A stretch of DNA of 64,000 bases from Polynucleobacter nymphae. GTDB taxonomy: Bacteria; Pseudomonadota; Gammaproteobacteria; Burkholderiales; Burkholderiaceae. The stretch is from positions 248,001 through 312,000 of the forward strand of contig NZ_JACVPA010000001.1 in assembly GCF_018882155.1 (NCBI RefSeq), written 5' to 3'. Every line of letters starts with the position of its first letter. Position 1 is the stretch's first letter. A program made the position numbers and the translations under genes. The notes under the pieces were generated by a model. That model was not told the origin of the DNA, did not search any database, and saw only the letters and a list, made by a program, of their open reading frames with translations. Shown piece after piece: positions 51,448 through 59,045 of the stretch.

Positions 51448-53373
51448 CTAGCTAGGCTCGGGTCCGACTTTCTGGGATATATCCTGCTGGAGTCGGGCAA
51501 CGAAGGCATCAAGAGGCATTACACCTAAATCCACTCCGCCACGGGCACGAACGGCCACCGTATTACTTTCAGATTCTTTATCCCCAACAACTAACAAAAA
51601 TGGGATCTTCTGTAATGCGTGCTCGCGTATTTTATACGTTATTTTCTCATTCCGCAAATCGGATTCCACTCTAAACCCTTGTTTTTTCAGCGATTGCTGG
51701 ACTTGTTGTGCATATGCAGCAGAATTTCCGGAGATATTGAGAACCACAGCCTGGGTTGGGGCAAGCCAAACTGGCATATTTCCAGCGTGGTTTTCGATCA
51801 AAATACCGATAAAACGCTCTAAAGAGCCCACAATTGCTCTATGAAGCATGACTGGGGTCTTGCGGCTATTGTCTTCAGCCACATATTCAGCGCCTAAACG
51901 CTCTGGCATCGAGAAATCCACCTGAATCGTGCCGCACTGCCAAGTACGCCCAATCGAGTCTTTTAGGTGATATTCGATCTTAGGACCATAAAAAGCGCCC
52001 TCGCCTGGCAATTCTTCCCACTCTTGGCCTGAAGCCTTAAGGGCTCCGCGAAGGGCTGCTTCCGCCTTATCCCAAATTGCATCATCGCCAACCCGCTTGG
52101 CAGGACGTAAGGCCAACTTCACAGCCACTTCAGTAAAACCAAAATCTTGATAGACATCGCGGACCGCTTTATCAAAGCTGGCTACTTCGGATTGAATTTG
52201 ATCTTCAGTACAAAAAATATGGCCATCGTCTTGCGTAAAACCACGTACGCGCATCAAACCATGCAATGCACCAGATGGTTCATTGCGGTGGCATTGACCA
52301 AACTCACCAAAGCGCAACGGCAACTCGCGATAGCTATGGAGTCCAGAGTTATAAATTTGTACATGACCAGGGCAGTTCATCGGCTTTAATGCATAAGCAC
52401 GATTCTCCGACTCGGTCGTGAACATATTTTCTTTATAGTTTTCCCAGTGGCCCGATTTTTCCCAAAGACCACGATCCAAAATTTGCGGGGCCTTTACTTC
52501 TTGGTAGCCTTCTTGCTGATACACGCGTCGCATGTACTGCTCAACTTCTTGCCAGATCGACCAACCTTTGGGATGCCAGAAAACTAGACCAGGAGCCTCA
52601 GATTGAAAATGAAAGAGGTCCAGTAATTTTCCAAGACGTCGGTGATCACGTTTTTCTGCCTCTTCAAGCATATGCAAATAGGCATCTTGATCTTCTTTGC
52701 GTAACCAGGCTGTGCCATAGATACGCTGCAACATCTCATTCTTACTATCGCCACGCCAATAAGCGCCAGCAACACTTTGCAACTTAAATACTTTTAACTT
52801 ACCAGTGGAAGGTACATGAGGGCCGCGACATAAATCAGTGAACTTACCTTCTGCATAAAGGGAAACATCTTCGCCCTGCGGGATGCTGGCAATGAGTTCT
52901 GCTTTGTAGTTTTCTCCCTGATCTTTGAAAAACTTCACCGCTTGATCACGTGGCATAACAGTGCGCACCACTGGCTCATCTTTTTTAGCAAGCTCAGCCA
53001 TTTTGTTTTCAATCGCCACCAAATCATCTGGTGTAAATGGACGGTGATAAGAGAAGTCGTAATAAAAACCGTTCTCTACCACTGGACCAATCGTCACCTG
53101 CGCTTCAGGGAATAATTCTTTTACAGCATAGGCCAATAAATGGGCTGTTGAGTGGCGCACTATCTCAAGTGCTTCAGGACTCTTGTCGGTAATGATCGCG
53201 AGCTGACTGTCTTTGTCGATCAGAAAACTCGTATCAACCATCTTGCCATCAACGATGCCGCCTAAGGCTGCTTTTGCAAGACCACTACCGATGCTTTGAG
53301 CGACATCCGCTACGCGAACGGGGGCCTCAAACTCACGTTTTGATCCATCGGGCAGAGTAACTACAAGCATCAT
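51448..53373 (-). CDS. thrS: threonyl-tRNA synthetase
   Basis: Charges tRNA-Thr. 641 residues: N-terminal TGS domain (about 1-62), the editing domain with the [16 protein letters not shown] motif (about 74-90), the catalytic class II core with zinc ligands in [10 protein letters not shown] and HCH-type positions, and the C-terminal anticodon domain ([16 protein letters not shown]). Starts the thrS-infC-rpmI-rplT-pheS-pheT-ihfA-merR run and lies downstream of tRNA-Val. Confidence 0.96.
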
Positions 53374-53576: not shown

Positions 53577-55565
53577 TCACCGGCGACGCACTTGGGTGAC
53601 CCCTTTAACTTCCTCTAGGCTATTTTGAACAAGGCGCAATACTTCAGAATCCTTGACCTCAACTGTTAAAAGGATCTGGGCTAGGCCTTTTTTGGCAGAT
53701 TTACGTAAATCAATGACATGTACACCTTGCCGAGTCAGAATTTCAAAGAGCTCACGCATCAGGTCTTGACGATCTAAGCCAGTCACCACCAAATCCGCTG
53801 GGAACACCCGCTTTGGGTCTTTATCTGCAGTTGAATTGGCTGTAGCAGTCCAAGCGGTTTGGATAACGCGTTCAGGAGCTCTTTCTAAAAGTCCTCTAAA
53901 GGTCCTACATGTTCGCCGATGAATTGAAACGCCTCTACCCTGAGTCACAAATCCTGCAATCGTGTCTGGCGGAACTGGCCGGCAGCAACGTGCCAATTGC
54001 GTGAGCAAAGAATCTACGCCAACTACCAAGACATCGCCGCTCTGACCGGCCTTTCTTGTACTGTTGCGAAGAATAATTTCTGGCGTGGCTACTTTTGCTT
54101 CAGAACCTGCTTCGACTTTAGGCTCTACAGGCTTTGCTGTAAGGCCAGTCTCTTCGTCATCGAGCGCATTAAACCAAGCGCGCACTCTCGAGCGCGCTCT
54201 TTGCGAGCGTAAATAATTTTTATCGGGACTAATCCAATCGCGCGAAGGACCGCCATGCTTGACTGTAACAATCTCAATGGTCTGACCATTTTGTAATGCA
54301 GATTCTAGGGGAACCATTGCGCCATCAACACGGGCACCTCTGCAACGATGGCCTAAGTTAGTGTGAACCGCATAGGCAAAATCAACTGGGGTAGAACCTT
54401 TTTCTAGTGAAATCACTTTACCTAATGGTGTGAGCACGTAGATGTGATCATCGATCTCATGATGTTTGAGTTGCTCCCAAGCGTCTTCCTTCCAGGAAAT
54501 CAACTGTCTTGCCCAAGCAATCTGTCTTTCATAGGCTACTTCTGCACTATCGGTTCCAGCTTGATGGGAAGAATTAGGCGGTTTAGACATGCCACTATAG
54601 GCACCCTCTTTATAACGCCAGTGAGCCGCCAAACCGTACTCTGCTTGTTGATGCATGTCTTGAGTGCGGACCTGGATCTCGAAGGCCGTGCCATTCTCAT
54701 TCATCACCACTGTATGGAGTGATTGATAGCCGTTTGGTTTAGGGCGTGCAATGTAATCGTCAAACTCACGCGGTACTGGTTGCCAGACGTTATGTACGAT
54801 ACCTAAGACTGCGTAGCAAGATCTCACATCCGCAAGCAAGACACGAAATGCTCTCACATCATAAAGATCGGCAAAGTCGAGTGACTTGCCTTGCATCTTC
54901 TTCCAAATGCTATAGATATGTTTCGGTCGACCATGCACCTCGCCTTCAATCTGCGCTAGCTTCAATTCTTCTTGGAGTTGCAAAACAATTCGATCAATGA
55001 ATGATTGGCGTTCTATTCTTTTGGCATCTAGCATATTGGCAATATCGCGGTAGGTATCTGGCGACATTGCTCTAAATGCCAAGTCCTCCATCTCCCACTT
55101 CATTTGCCAGATACCCAGACGATTGGCCAATGAGGCATCGATATTGAGAATCTCATGCGCCCAAGGGGCGGGCATAGATATATTCTCTTGAGTGATCCAA
55201 CGCAGTGTTTGTAGACGAGAGGCTAAATAGATGAGCACAACACGCAGGTCATCTCCAAAGGCCAAGAGCATCTTACGCAACATCTCTTCTTGGCCTGCCA
55301 CACTTAAGCCACCATCATCACGTACCAATTTCGCTTGTGCCTGGCGTAAGCCTCGGTAGCCAATTAATAACTTTGCAGACTCTTCACCAATCAGCTTGAT
55401 GAGCGCTTCTTTGCCATGCGTTCGGGCAATATTGCTAGCAGCAGTTAATGTAGCCTCATCTAAACCGAGGGATTGCAGAATTTGCAAAGCGCCAGCGGCG
55501 TGCGCTTCTGCTGGCTCGCCATACCAAGCATCAATGAAGATTGGTTTGCTGGAAACATTTGCCAT
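53577..55565 (-). CDS. relA: GTP pyrophosphokinase RelA
   Basis: Synthesises (p)ppGpp during amino-acid starvation. 662 residues: an N-terminal HD-like region (about 20-170) without the metal HD pair (NIARTHGKEAL at that place), so probably no hydrolase activity; the synthetase (about 215-340) with EFDDYIARPKPNGYQSLHTVV, in which the acidic EFDDY pattern is the RelA rather than SpoT type; TGS (about 375-435, LTPLGKVISLEKGSTPVDFAY); and a C-terminal ACT domain ending VTQVRRR. tRNA-Val follows. Confidence 0.93.
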   Translation of the reverse strand: MANVSSKPIFIDAWYGEPAEAHAAGALQILQSLGLDEATLTAASNIARTHGKEALIKLIGEESAKLLIGYRGLRQAQAKLVRDDGGLSVAGQEEMLRKMLLAFGDDLRVVLIYLASRLQTLRWITQENISMPAPWAHEILNIDASLANRLGIWQMKWEMEDLAFRAMSPDTYRDIANMLDAKRIERQSFIDRIVLQLQEELKLAQIEGEVHGRPKHIYSIWKKMQGKSLDFADLYDVRAFRVLLADVRSCYAVLGIVHNVWQPVPREFDDYIARPKPNGYQSLHTVVMNENGTAFEIQVRTQDMHQQAEYGLAAHWRYKEGAYSGMSKPPNSSHQAGTDSAEVAYERQIAWARQLISWKEDAWEQLKHHEIDDHIYVLTPLGKVISLEKGSTPVDFAYAVHTNLGHRCRGARVDGAMVPLESALQNGQTIEIVTVKHGGPSRDWISPDKNYLRSQRARSRVRAWFNALDDEETGLTAKPVEPKVEAGSEAKVATPEIILRNSTRKAGQSGDVLVVGVDSLLTQLARCCRPVPPDTIAGFVTQGRGVSIHRRTCRTFRGLLERAPERVIQTAWTATANSTADKDPKRVFPADLVVTGLDRQDLMRELFEILTRQGVHVIDLRKSAKKGLAQILLTVEVKDSEVLRLVQNSLEEVKGVTQVRRR

Positions 55566-55578
55566 TGACAGCTAAGCC

Positions 55579-57447
55579 TTAGCTGAAGAATTCTTTTGCT
55601 AGGGCAATTTGTTCTTGTTTCACAAATGCGGGGGCATGACCCACATTTGGAATCTCAATGCTGCGAGCATGCGGATTTACTTTGCACATCTGGGCAACCG
55701 TAGCTGCAGAGAGTAAATCAGATTGAGCGCCACGCACGATCAAGATCGGAATATGAATTTGCTTAAAAGCATGCCACATCGCCATCTCACCCGCCTTAGC
55801 CATGATGGGATTGACAGAGGCAAACGGCACAGCAATATCGGGGTCGTAATGCATGATCCATAAACCATTGCGTTCAATCAACATCGGGCCGTTATAGGTT
55901 TCCCACTCATCTGGTGTGTGCTCACCAAAAGTAGCGCAAAGTGCGTTGAGTCGACTTAAGGCATCAGCACGGCTCGCAAATGAAAAAGGTTGGCCTACGT
56001 AAGAGCCTAGACGCTGAATGGCTTCAGCCTCAATTTTTGGTCCCACATCATTAATCAACATTCTGCGTATAGGAGAGTTTGGCATCGCTGCATAAACCAT
56101 CCCAATCAGACCACCCATTGAAGTTCCAAGCCAATCAACTTGGGATACACCCAGGTGTTTTACCAGTTGGGCAATGTCAGCTACATACTGAGGGACGGCA
56201 TACTGCATTGGATTGCTTAAGCGATCAGAGTCTCCCCTGCCAACAACATCTGGGCAAACTACGTAATATTCCTGACACATGGCTTCAGCCAAAGTCTTAA
56301 AGTCACTGCCGCGCCTTGTTAGGCCATGAACACATAGCAATACTTTTGGATTTCTGGGGTTGCCCCAAGCGTGATAGGCCATGCGATGAGTAATATCACC
56401 ATCGGCACACTGAACATAAAAAGTATCACCCTGGTGATTAACTGGTGTTGAGCTGACCTCATCTTGCAGGTCCTCATCATGGGTATGTTCATCCATACTC
56501 CCAAATACCTCAGGCTGCAAAGTCACATGGTCAATACCATGTTGATCTAAAAGCATAGTATTGATACGAGACATGATTTGTGGCCACTCTTGCATTTCCG
56601 CAATTTCAATATGGCCAATCAGTGCTGGAAAGCTGGGGGTCATCTCCCAAACGTGGAGATCGTGCACCGCCAATACGCCAGGAACTCCTCTCAGATCTTT
56701 TCCCACCTGCAAATAATCAATATGAAGTGGCACTCCCTCCATGAGGAAGTGATAAGACTCATGGAGAATGGAAACTGTTGATTTAAGAATCAAAAGAGAT
56801 ACAAGAATAGAAAGAATTGCATCAATTGGCATCCATCCAGTCAACTGAATAACAACACCAGCAATCAAAGCAGCGATTGATCCGAGCAAGTCACCCATCA
56901 CATGTACAAGGGCAGCGCGGGTGTTCACACTTTTCTTGTCACGTGAAAGAACCCAGGCAACTACGATATTCATGAGAAGGCCGATACTAGCCACGACAGT
57001 GACTGTGAATCCATCGACTTTATGTGGGTCATAAAAACGACTAATCGCCTCAAACACAATCCATACGACTAAAGCTAACATCGCAATGCTATTCACAAAA
57101 GCAGCTAGGGCTTCTGCTCTACCAAAACCAAAAGAATGTTTTGGTGAAGGCGGACGACGAGAAATAATTTGCGCTAGGAGTGCCAAGCCCAAGGCAGCAG
57201 CATCAGTCACCATGTGACCGGCATCGGAGATCAATGCTAATGAATTGGCAAAATAAGCGGCGGCGCCCTCAACCCCTGCAAAACCAAGAGTAAGTATCAG
57301 AGCAATCAAAAGTAAGTTTTGGTTTGAGACTTGCTTGCTATGAGTATGCTGAGCATCACCCTTTTTATGAGCGTGCAGCGAAGGATCAAGCTCAGAACTC
57401 ATCTGAGCTCTGGGTTTTGTTGAAGGTGAAGAATGGGATCCCGACAT
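55579..57447 (-). CDS. fused cation-diffusion-facilitator transporter and alpha/beta hydrolase
   Basis: A single 622-codon frame encodes two proteins. Residues about 35-310 are a CDF metal exporter: His-rich N terminus (HAHKKGDAQHTH), six helices with metal sites SDAGHMVTDA and HVMGDLLGSIA, and a cytosolic domain (LLDQHGIDHVTLQPEV). After an acidic, His-containing linker (about 316-332), residues about 340-622 are an alpha/beta hydrolase with VHGLTRRGSDF, nucleophile WLGTSMGGLIGM, and GHAPAFV carrying the His. An internal ATG in the linker, preceded by GAGG, could give the hydrolase alone. I know of no standard protein with this fusion. Confidence 0.85.
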   Translation of the reverse strand: MSGSHSSPSTKPRAQMSSELDPSLHAHKKGDAQHTHSKQVSNQNLLLIALILTLGFAGVEGAAAYFANSLALISDAGHMVTDAAALGLALLAQIISRRPPSPKHSFGFGRAEALAAFVNSIAMLALVVWIVFEAISRFYDPHKVDGFTVTVVASIGLLMNIVVAWVLSRDKKSVNTRAALVHVMGDLLGSIAALIAGVVIQLTGWMPIDAILSILVSLLILKSTVSILHESYHFLMEGVPLHIDYLQVGKDLRGVPGVLAVHDLHVWEMTPSFPALIGHIEIAEMQEWPQIMSRINTMLLDQHGIDHVTLQPEVFGSMDEHTHDEDLQDEVSSTPVNHQGDTFYVQCADGDITHRMAYHAWGNPRNPKVLLCVHGLTRRGSDFKTLAEAMCQEYYVVCPDVVGRGDSDRLSNPMQYAVPQYVADIAQLVKHLGVSQVDWLGTSMGGLIGMVYAAMPNSPIRRMLINDVGPKIEAEAIQRLGSYVGQPFSFASRADALSRLNALCATFGEHTPDEWETYNGPMLIERNGLWIMHYDPDIAVPFASVNPIMAKAGEMAMWHAFKQIHIPILIVRGAQSDLLSAATVAQMCKVNPHARSIEIPNVGHAPAFVKQEQIALAKEFFS

Positions 57448-57482: not shown

Positions 57483-58133
57483 TTAGAAACCCGCTGTATC
57501 AACAGGGGCACCTGTTTTAGCGATCACCTCTTCTTTGGTGACACCAGGGGCTAATTCAGTCAATTTCAGACCTTTGGGAGTGATATCGAGCACGCACAGG
57601 TCGGTGATGATTTGACTAATGACACCCACGCCGGTTAATGGCAAGTTGCATTTGGGCAGAATCTTGAGCTCTTCTGTGCCATCTTTCTTTTTAGCAACAT
57701 GTTCCATTAAGACAACTACGTGCTTTACGCCTGCAACTAAATCCATTGCGCCGCCCATACCTTTAACCATCTTGCCAGGAATCATCCAATTGGCAATATC
57801 ACCGTGCTCACTCACTTGCATCGCACCTAAAAATGCAATGTTAATTTTCCCGCCGCGAATCATGCCAAAGGCATCGGCTGATGAAAAAATGGAGGAGCCA
57901 GGCAGCGTCGTAATTGTTTGTTTTCCGGCATTGATCAAATCAGCATCGATCTGATCTTCCGTTGGAAATGGTCCGATACCCAGTAAACCATTTTCAGATT
58001 GCAACCATACTTCTATGCCTGCAGGTACATGATTGGCTACTAAGGTAGGAATACCGATTCCCAGGTTTACGTAATAACCATCTTTTAATTCTTTGGCAGC
58101 ACGTGCCGCCATCTCATCTCTAGTCCAAGGCAT
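57483..58133 (-). CDS. scoB: 3-oxoacid CoA-transferase subunit B
   Basis: Moves CoA from succinyl-CoA (or acetyl-CoA) to acetoacetate with ScoA. 216 residues with the catalytic glutamate in [13 protein letters not shown] (about 42-54), the SENGLLG signature of subunit B, and [20 protein letters not shown]. It follows the A subunit by 40 bases. Subunit order matches SCOT-type enzymes. Confidence 0.93.
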
Positions 58134-58173: not shown

Positions 58174-58875
58174 TTAGCGTGCAGCCGAGATAGTGCGTTG
58201 TTCAATGCGCTTCTCAGGACTACTATTAATCACAAGGCGATGCACATAGATACTTGGAGTATGAATCTCAGCAGGATCTAAAGCGCCGTTCTCAACAATC
58301 TCTTCCACTTCAGCAATAGTAATCTTTCCTGCCATTGCCACTACTGGGTTGAAGTTACGAGCAGTATGTCGATAAATCAAATTACCTGATCGGTCCGCCT
58401 TCCAAGCTTTTACTAGAGAAATATCAGTGACAATCGAGCGCTCCATGATGTATTTTTCGCCATCAAATTCTTTGACCTCTTTACCCTCAGCTACCAAAGT
58501 GCCAACACCCGTTTTTGTGTAGAAGGCAGGAATACCGCAACCACCAGCGCGTAATTTTTCTGCCAGCGTGCCTTGTGGGGTGAACTCTAACTCCAGCTCG
58601 CCTGCAAGGTATTGACGTTCAAACTCTTTGTTCTCGCCTACATAAGATGCAACCATTTTCTTTACTTGACGAGAATTGAGCAAAATACCTAAGCCGAAAC
58701 CATCCACGCCAGCATTATTAGATACAGCGGTCAAGTTTTGCGCGCCAAGTTCTTTCACTGCCTCAATTAAGGCCTCAGGAATGCCGCATAGACCAAAACC
58801 ACCAACACCGAGTTTTTGTCCGTCTTTTAAGATATCCCTCAAGGCATCTGCTGCCGATGGGTAGGTTTTATTCAT
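58174..58875 (-). CDS. scoA: 3-oxoacid CoA-transferase subunit A
   Basis: 233 residues when started at ATG 58875 ([16 protein letters not shown]), which has AGGA 8 bases upstream; the frame extends 27 codons further without a good ribosome site. It shows the CoA-binding pattern [14 protein letters not shown] (about 25-38) and FYTKTGVGT. Partner of ScoB. Together they handle acetoacetate and link to PHB or ketone-body turnover, consistent with the phasin. Confidence 0.93.
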
Positions 58876-59045
58876 AACATTTGTCCTAATATTGCCAAAA
58901 TGGGTAAAAACGCAATCATAACGCTTTAGGCTCCCAAGCCTAGCTTGCTCAGGCACGACTTAGGTACTACTGAGGCGCTAAATTGGTTTTTGGCTATTCG
59001 CACTAAACTAAAGGGGGCTAATAAGCCTATTTTTGAGGATTAGGA

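Follow-up and report, generated by a model that had tools for sequence, protein, structure and literature searches.

Within the window, the 64,000-nucleotide stretch of Polynucleobacter nymphae DNA analysed here, a single ATG-to-stop frame on the minus strand (55579..57447) encodes 622 amino acids in the order CDF transporter, linker and alpha/beta-hydrolase, an arrangement supported by Pfam and by conservation within the genus. Its neighbours lie on the same strand. Upstream, at a distance of 35 nt, is scoB (57483..58133; 3-oxoacid CoA-transferase subunit B, TIGR02428, 314.8 bits, cut-off 243.55), and beyond it scoA (58174..58956; subunit A, TIGR02429, 255.4 bits, cut-off 128.5). A gene for a RelA/SpoT-type protein (53577..55565) begins the downstream side after 13 nt; it scored 472.5 bits with TIGR00691, just below the cut-off of 499.2. 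The downstream end of the syntenic block is formed by an ORF at 51448..53373, whose homologues occur in equal order in relatives and which we take, by the look of its sequence, to be thrS (threonyl-tRNA synthetase). No promoter-like or terminator-like sites were listed for the minus strand between 55300 and 59100, which fits one operon, as weak evidence. In the RelA/SpoT-type protein the HD hydrolase motif is absent by eye from the N-terminal half and the synthetase region looks complete, so that this protein is perhaps synthetase-only. In the passages of PMC9049629 that bear on it, Ralstonia eutropha SpoT2 is described with synthase activity only.

The frame contains what the sequence-only reading had proposed, a CDF transporter and then a serine hydrolase with no stop between them, as ORF calling and Pfam both confirmed. 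The N-terminal 41 residues (57325..57447) contain His and are variable (pLDDT <50 at residues 1-41). The CDF domain (residues 42-313, 56509..57324) matched Cation_efflux at residues 46-236 (E 2.3e-43, 148.7 bits against a cut-off of 26.6) and ZT_dimer at residues 242-313 (E 1.6e-9, 38.1 bits against 26.7). It has six predicted membrane helices, the metal-site motifs H78/D82 and H182/D186 and a cytosolic ZT_dimer with HDLHVW at 262-267. The CDF half passed TIGR01297 (261.3, cut-off 82.35) and did not pass the ZitB equivalog NF002923 (266.1, cut-off 408 bits). Next comes the linker (residues 314-349, 56401..56508), which in the window's gene is rich in His, Asp and Glu, as had also been claimed; it contains one in-frame ATG (residue 318), has pLDDT <50 at 309-334, and a strand is predicted from residue 338. 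The hydrolase domain (residues 350-622, 55582..56400) matched Abhydrolase_1 at residues 369-609 (E 3.5e-19, over the cut-off), with an HG oxyanion motif at 374-375 and a likely triad of S443 (in GTSMGG), D577 and H604, which we assigned from the motif and from where the residues follow predicted strands. The fused protein had a single full-length match in its own 2.13 Mb genome, where the fused ORF was also the sole match to the CDF Pfam model; the hydrolase half alone gave weak matches at three further places.

We then considered the predicted structure. The AlphaFold2 model, built from a 45-sequence alignment (mean pLDDT 68.2, pTM 0.44; the placement of the CDF relative to the hydrolase is not reliable), shows six long helices (from 37-67 to 208-237), followed by a small alpha/beta cytosolic domain and by the hydrolase from the strand at 338. 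When the model was compared with solved structures by VIA-align, the CDF half matched SLC30A10 (Z 23.1, rmsd 7.0, 270 residues) and ZnT7 (Z 22.5, rmsd 7.0, 265 residues), and the hydrolase half matched the esterase 1zoi (Z 24.0, rmsd 3.2, 232 residues), 4ose (Z 23.4, rmsd 3.2, 255 residues) and 3bwx (Z 23.2, rmsd 4.0, 269 residues). By sequence, the best solved matches to the hydrolase half were 4ose (E 4e-43) and 3bwx (E 5.8e-42). The metal site of zinc-type CDFs consists of one HxxxD motif in each of helices 2 and 5, and the CDF half has both. Besides the two Pfam domains over their cut-offs, the model predicts the six transmembrane helices and the cytosolic dimer domain that are expected of a CDF. 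We take the CDF half to be a metal exporter, with zinc as the probable metal.

How widespread is the fusion? We used the full-length fused protein as the query against 151 Polynucleobacter genomes, an even sample of a larger group. The junction lay within one match or ORF in 118 of them (G120 is counted here by its 641-aa ORF); two of the 118 carry a lesion, a stop within the hydrolase half in G023 and a frameshift in the CDF half in G117. The stops reported for G125 fall outside its intact 606-aa ORF (L089). In G067 the two parts are on two contigs, each extending beyond the junction, and G017, G103 and G108 have broken copies with the fused arrangement. The CDF and the hydrolase were two separate genes in 23 genomes; as for the rest, G139 (one match) was placed in no class and five genomes had no match. 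Inspection of all 23 unfused loci revealed that a bdhA-like gene separates CDF and hydrolase in 13 and that none lies between them in 10, where the gap is -4 to 269 nt (including two of 11 and 31 nt taken from ORFs). One such middle gene was compared with NCBIfam and proved to be a 3-hydroxybutyrate dehydrogenase (TIGR01963, 370.2 bits, cut-off 307.05); three were compared with Pfam, and all of these have short-chain dehydrogenase domains. A CDF-bdhA-hydrolase triple fusion, suggested in six genomes by frame values of 924-952 aa, was ruled out by direct calling, which gave three separate ORFs with a CDF frame of 313-318 aa; frame values of 647-952 aa at unfused loci span several ORFs and are not fusions.

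Among the matches listed, no match spanned the junction in 259 genomes from other genera of the family or in 246 other genomes of the order; a diverged fusion that shows as two weak matches could escape these listings, and the absence applies to these samples of 259 and 246 genomes and not to bacteria at large. We also inspected twenty loci outside the genus with long frames (about 470-1255 aa), among them every listed frame of at least 575 aa, and none holds both domains at E 1e-5. In 10 of the 15 long-frame hydrolase loci outside the genus, bdhA lies just upstream on the opposite strand, which may explain the long frames there. Among the papers listed from the open literature (titles and abstract openings, a weak test) we found none on a CDF or Polynucleobacter fusion of this type.

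We compared three trees. The flank tree was built from RelA, ScoB and ScoA (106 loci, 1111 columns; 112 loci had sufficiently long RelA and ScoB, and six were left out as identical in RelA). In it, 86 fused loci and two broken ones (L094 and L097) form one clade (support 0.88), whose sister consists of nine bdhA-split loci, and seven adjacent-gene loci fall outside both. An equal fused clade was recovered from the CDF halves (104 sequences, support 0.993) and from the hydrolase halves (106 sequences, support 0.916). The adjacent genes outside the sister clade favour insertion of bdhA within that clade, whereas the position of bdhA next to the hydrolase in other genera points to an ancestral bdhA whose loss made the join. 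In the genome of the window, unlike in the sister clade, where a 3-hydroxybutyrate dehydrogenase gene separates CDF and hydrolase, such a gene (L189, G000:C9:585434-586189, over the TIGR01963 cut-off) is found far from the scoAB locus. The CDF gene follows scoB also in two genomes from other genera of the family (L107 and L108), so the scoAB-CDF neighbourhood may predate the fusion. We infer that a ZnT/ZitB-type CDF gene was joined in frame with the downstream hydrolase gene in an ancestor shared by most of the Polynucleobacter sampled; this would have taken place in a scoAB-CDF-hydrolase-relA neighbourhood.

Conservation was measured in 114 complete unique fused proteins (from 119 unique ones, five shorter than 595 aa were left out). 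S443, D577, H604, H78 and D82 were invariant in all 114, H182 and D186 were kept in 113, and each position of HDLHVW was kept in at least 110. The single exception at helix 5, L070, has lost both H182 and D186, with an intact hydrolase triad. The mean major-residue fraction was 0.90 in the CDF core, 0.87 in the hydrolase, 0.51 in the linker and 0.61 in the N terminus (residues 1-40). In pairs with a whole-gene dS of 0.2-1.0 (65 sequences), the CDF half had a dN/dS of 0.024 and the hydrolase half one of 0.041 (103 pairs each); the linker reached 0.092 (95 pairs) and the N terminus 0.105 (100 pairs). Purifying selection is strong on each of the two halves. Frameshifts or stops break the fused gene in L050, L093, L094, L095/L187 and L097; L187 carries the label Polynucleobacter necessarius isolate PPGSP2. 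The fusion is real, old and under selection in most of the sampled Polynucleobacter. Its breadth in the genus, the single clade and the selection on both halves bear out a true fusion, one of two origins that had been offered; the other, recently merged neighbours, was not supported, although a merger of neighbours long ago was. Close relatives with two genes and an intact stop, which had been named as a sign of an artefact, were looked for, and two genes were present only in distant members of the genus.

The linker varies in both sequence and length. Between residues 313 and 353 it is 31-65 residues long and always in frame in the 114 proteins; a frame kept through such changes in length speaks for selection on the junction as coding sequence. 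The suggestion of a possible internal start was upheld in part: the ATG at residue 318 is present in the window's gene, but this feature is not conserved, as only 41 of the 114 genes have a linker ATG. An SD-like 4-mer precedes eight of these 41, and 19 of the 114 genes have any linker start codon with such a 4-mer. Compared with the background at internal Met codons (103 of 2565), the 8 of 41 would allow a free hydrolase in some species, although the excess may reflect purine-rich linkers. Residue 356, which is inside the hydrolase fold, is Met in all 114 proteins, with an SD-like 4-mer upstream in nine.

What does the hydrolase act on? None of the 25 NCBIfam matches listed passed a curated hydrolase cut-off, and the best hydrolase models among them, MenH, PHA depolymerase and PcaD, each fell well short; the intracellular PHA depolymerase i-nPHAscl (NF050089) reached 55.3 of the required 300 bits. 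A serine nucleophile, an acid and a histidine are general for this hydrolase fold, and the set expected of a PhaY2-type hydrolase is present as S443, D577 and H604 throughout the 114 proteins. The locus is informative. By the gene order of R. eutropha, a PhaY2-type locus would have scoAB/bdhA on one side and relA/spoT on the other; scoAB and relA flank the window's hydrolase, some of the relatives have bdhA next to it, and in the window's own genome bdhA is elsewhere. In 38 hydrolase loci of other genera we found RelA nearby in 29, ScoB in 21 and a bdhA-like gene in 16 (weak partial matches to bdhA in L239 and RelA in L240 were left out), while 22 had no clear bdhA within the stretch read. As 15 of the 38 were chosen for long frames, which a divergent bdhA may produce, the bdhA count is biased upward; the other 23 loci give 6 of 23. 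This setting of scoAB, bdhA, relA and thrS suggests a PhaY2-like 3-hydroxybutyrate-oligomer hydrolase, and, by analogy of locus position, we hold such a role to be somewhat better than an even bet, in which case the enzyme may help to digest stored polyester.

The machinery for that polyester is common in the genus: among 39 chosen genomes, PhaC was over its cut-off in 35 and intracellular PhaZ in 38. No PhaC match was found in G042 and G119, draft assemblies that are split into many contigs. The PHA synthase gene and the fused gene are both broken in G017 and G103, but the fused gene alone is broken in G023, G108 and G117, and we gave this pattern no weight as support for a PHB role. The hydrolase could instead act on another ester or an enol-lactone, which would be compatible with any reading of the join. 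The distant MenH, PHA depolymerase and PcaD scores fit this, as do the nearest solved sequences, 4ose and 3bwx, which are unassigned hydrolases, whereas the recurrent setting beside scoAB and bdhA speaks against it; we consider another substrate possible, at rather less than even chances.

Which reading best explains the join? We lean, with moderate confidence, towards an old fusion gene in which a zinc-exporting CDF passively tethers a hydrolase of 3-hydroxybutyrate oligomers, or of similar compounds, at the inner membrane. The gene would be translated into one polypeptide, whose CDF half would form a homodimer and export Zn2+ against protons. Solved CDFs are dimers with both termini in the cytosol; a CDF homodimer would therefore hold the C-terminal hydrolases as a pair on the cytosolic face of the inner membrane, hanging from flexible linkers, so that membrane tethering would follow from the architecture. 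The hydrolase would cleave 3-hydroxybutyrate oligomers or similar small esters from PHB mobilisation, and its products would feed BdhA and ScoAB. The lack of linker conservation suggests a passive tether, and neither activity need regulate the other. Joining might bring local hydrolysis near membrane partners, a fixed stoichiometry, or no gain.

A neutral cistron fusion, in which an accidental join was tolerated by both parts and had no functional consequence, is less probable, though it deserves consideration. The CDF and hydrolase genes are close neighbours in the 10 unfused genomes without bdhA between them, and the unconserved linker would also fit. However, reversion to two working genes was not seen, the exceptions within the fused arrangement being broken copies. 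Moreover, the divergence of the hydrolase relative to that of the CDF is only slightly higher when the two are fused (1.16, compared to 1.08 and 0.94), showing no sign of decay.

The fusion could also be a metal-gated enzyme, as the sequence-only reading had proposed; Zn2+ on the CDF cytosolic domain or on the His-rich linker would then switch the hydrolase on or off. Many members do have a linker rich in His, Asp and Glu (14% to 56% of residues, median 31%), His pairs occur in the linkers of 83 of the 94 sequences that branch later and of 13 of the 20 that branch early, and HDLHVW is kept in the cytosolic domain. Yet the linker drifts in both length and sequence, and its content of His and Asp is 0.16-0.17 in the four early-branching groups (20 sequences) compared to 0.30 in the other 94; nine early-branching sequences (L076-L084) have only one or two linker His, although L085-L092, also early-branching, keep four or five. 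The proposal thus received no positive support, and we regard it as improbable. We give a still smaller place to the idea that the zinc exporter doubles as a membrane scaffold, with cytosolic zinc or the conformational cycle of the transporter tuning the release of 3-hydroxybutyrate from PHB oligomers at the inner membrane; if it were true, metal stress would be tied to carbon mobilisation at a locus whose genes include one for a RelA/SpoT-type alarmone enzyme. Finally, a sequencing or assembly artefact or a recent merger private to the window's strain has practically no chance of being correct, as the identical join in 118 of 151 genomes refutes it, one ORF holds both domains in 151 of 188 loci (some genomes counted twice), many of them from named isolates, and the unfused members are outlying branches of the genus.

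The locus is a plain example of how a transporter and an enzyme of a metabolic gene cluster turned into one predicted protein and stayed joined in a large genus of freshwater bacteria. The fusion combines known parts in a new way and offers a handle on a hydrolase family without an assigned function. Furthermore, the matched unfused, bdhA-split and fused lineages make it testable, in cultivable strains, whether joining matters.

With ZnT/ZitB-type CDFs, including the solved SLC30 proteins and YiiP, the window's protein shares both domains, HxxxD in helices 2 and 5, six predicted helices, a His-containing N terminus and the fold; it differs in carrying a whole hydrolase after the cytosolic domain. 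The solved hydrolases 3bwx (Novosphingobium) and 4ose (Rickettsia) are stand-alone proteins with titles that give no function, whereas the window's hydrolase is fused. The nearest described system may be that of R. eutropha, in which H16_A1335 is presumably neighboured by bdh and spoT2. The passages available from two papers list this protein, PhaY2, as a 3-hydroxybutyrate oligomer hydrolase (PMC3430594; PMC3734047), and those of PMC6011247 name H16_A1334 without a function. Related genera have a similar locus of scoAB, bdhA, hydrolase, relA/spoT and thrS. Here, in contrast to PhaY2, the hydrolase is fused to a membrane transporter and bdhA lies elsewhere in the genome.
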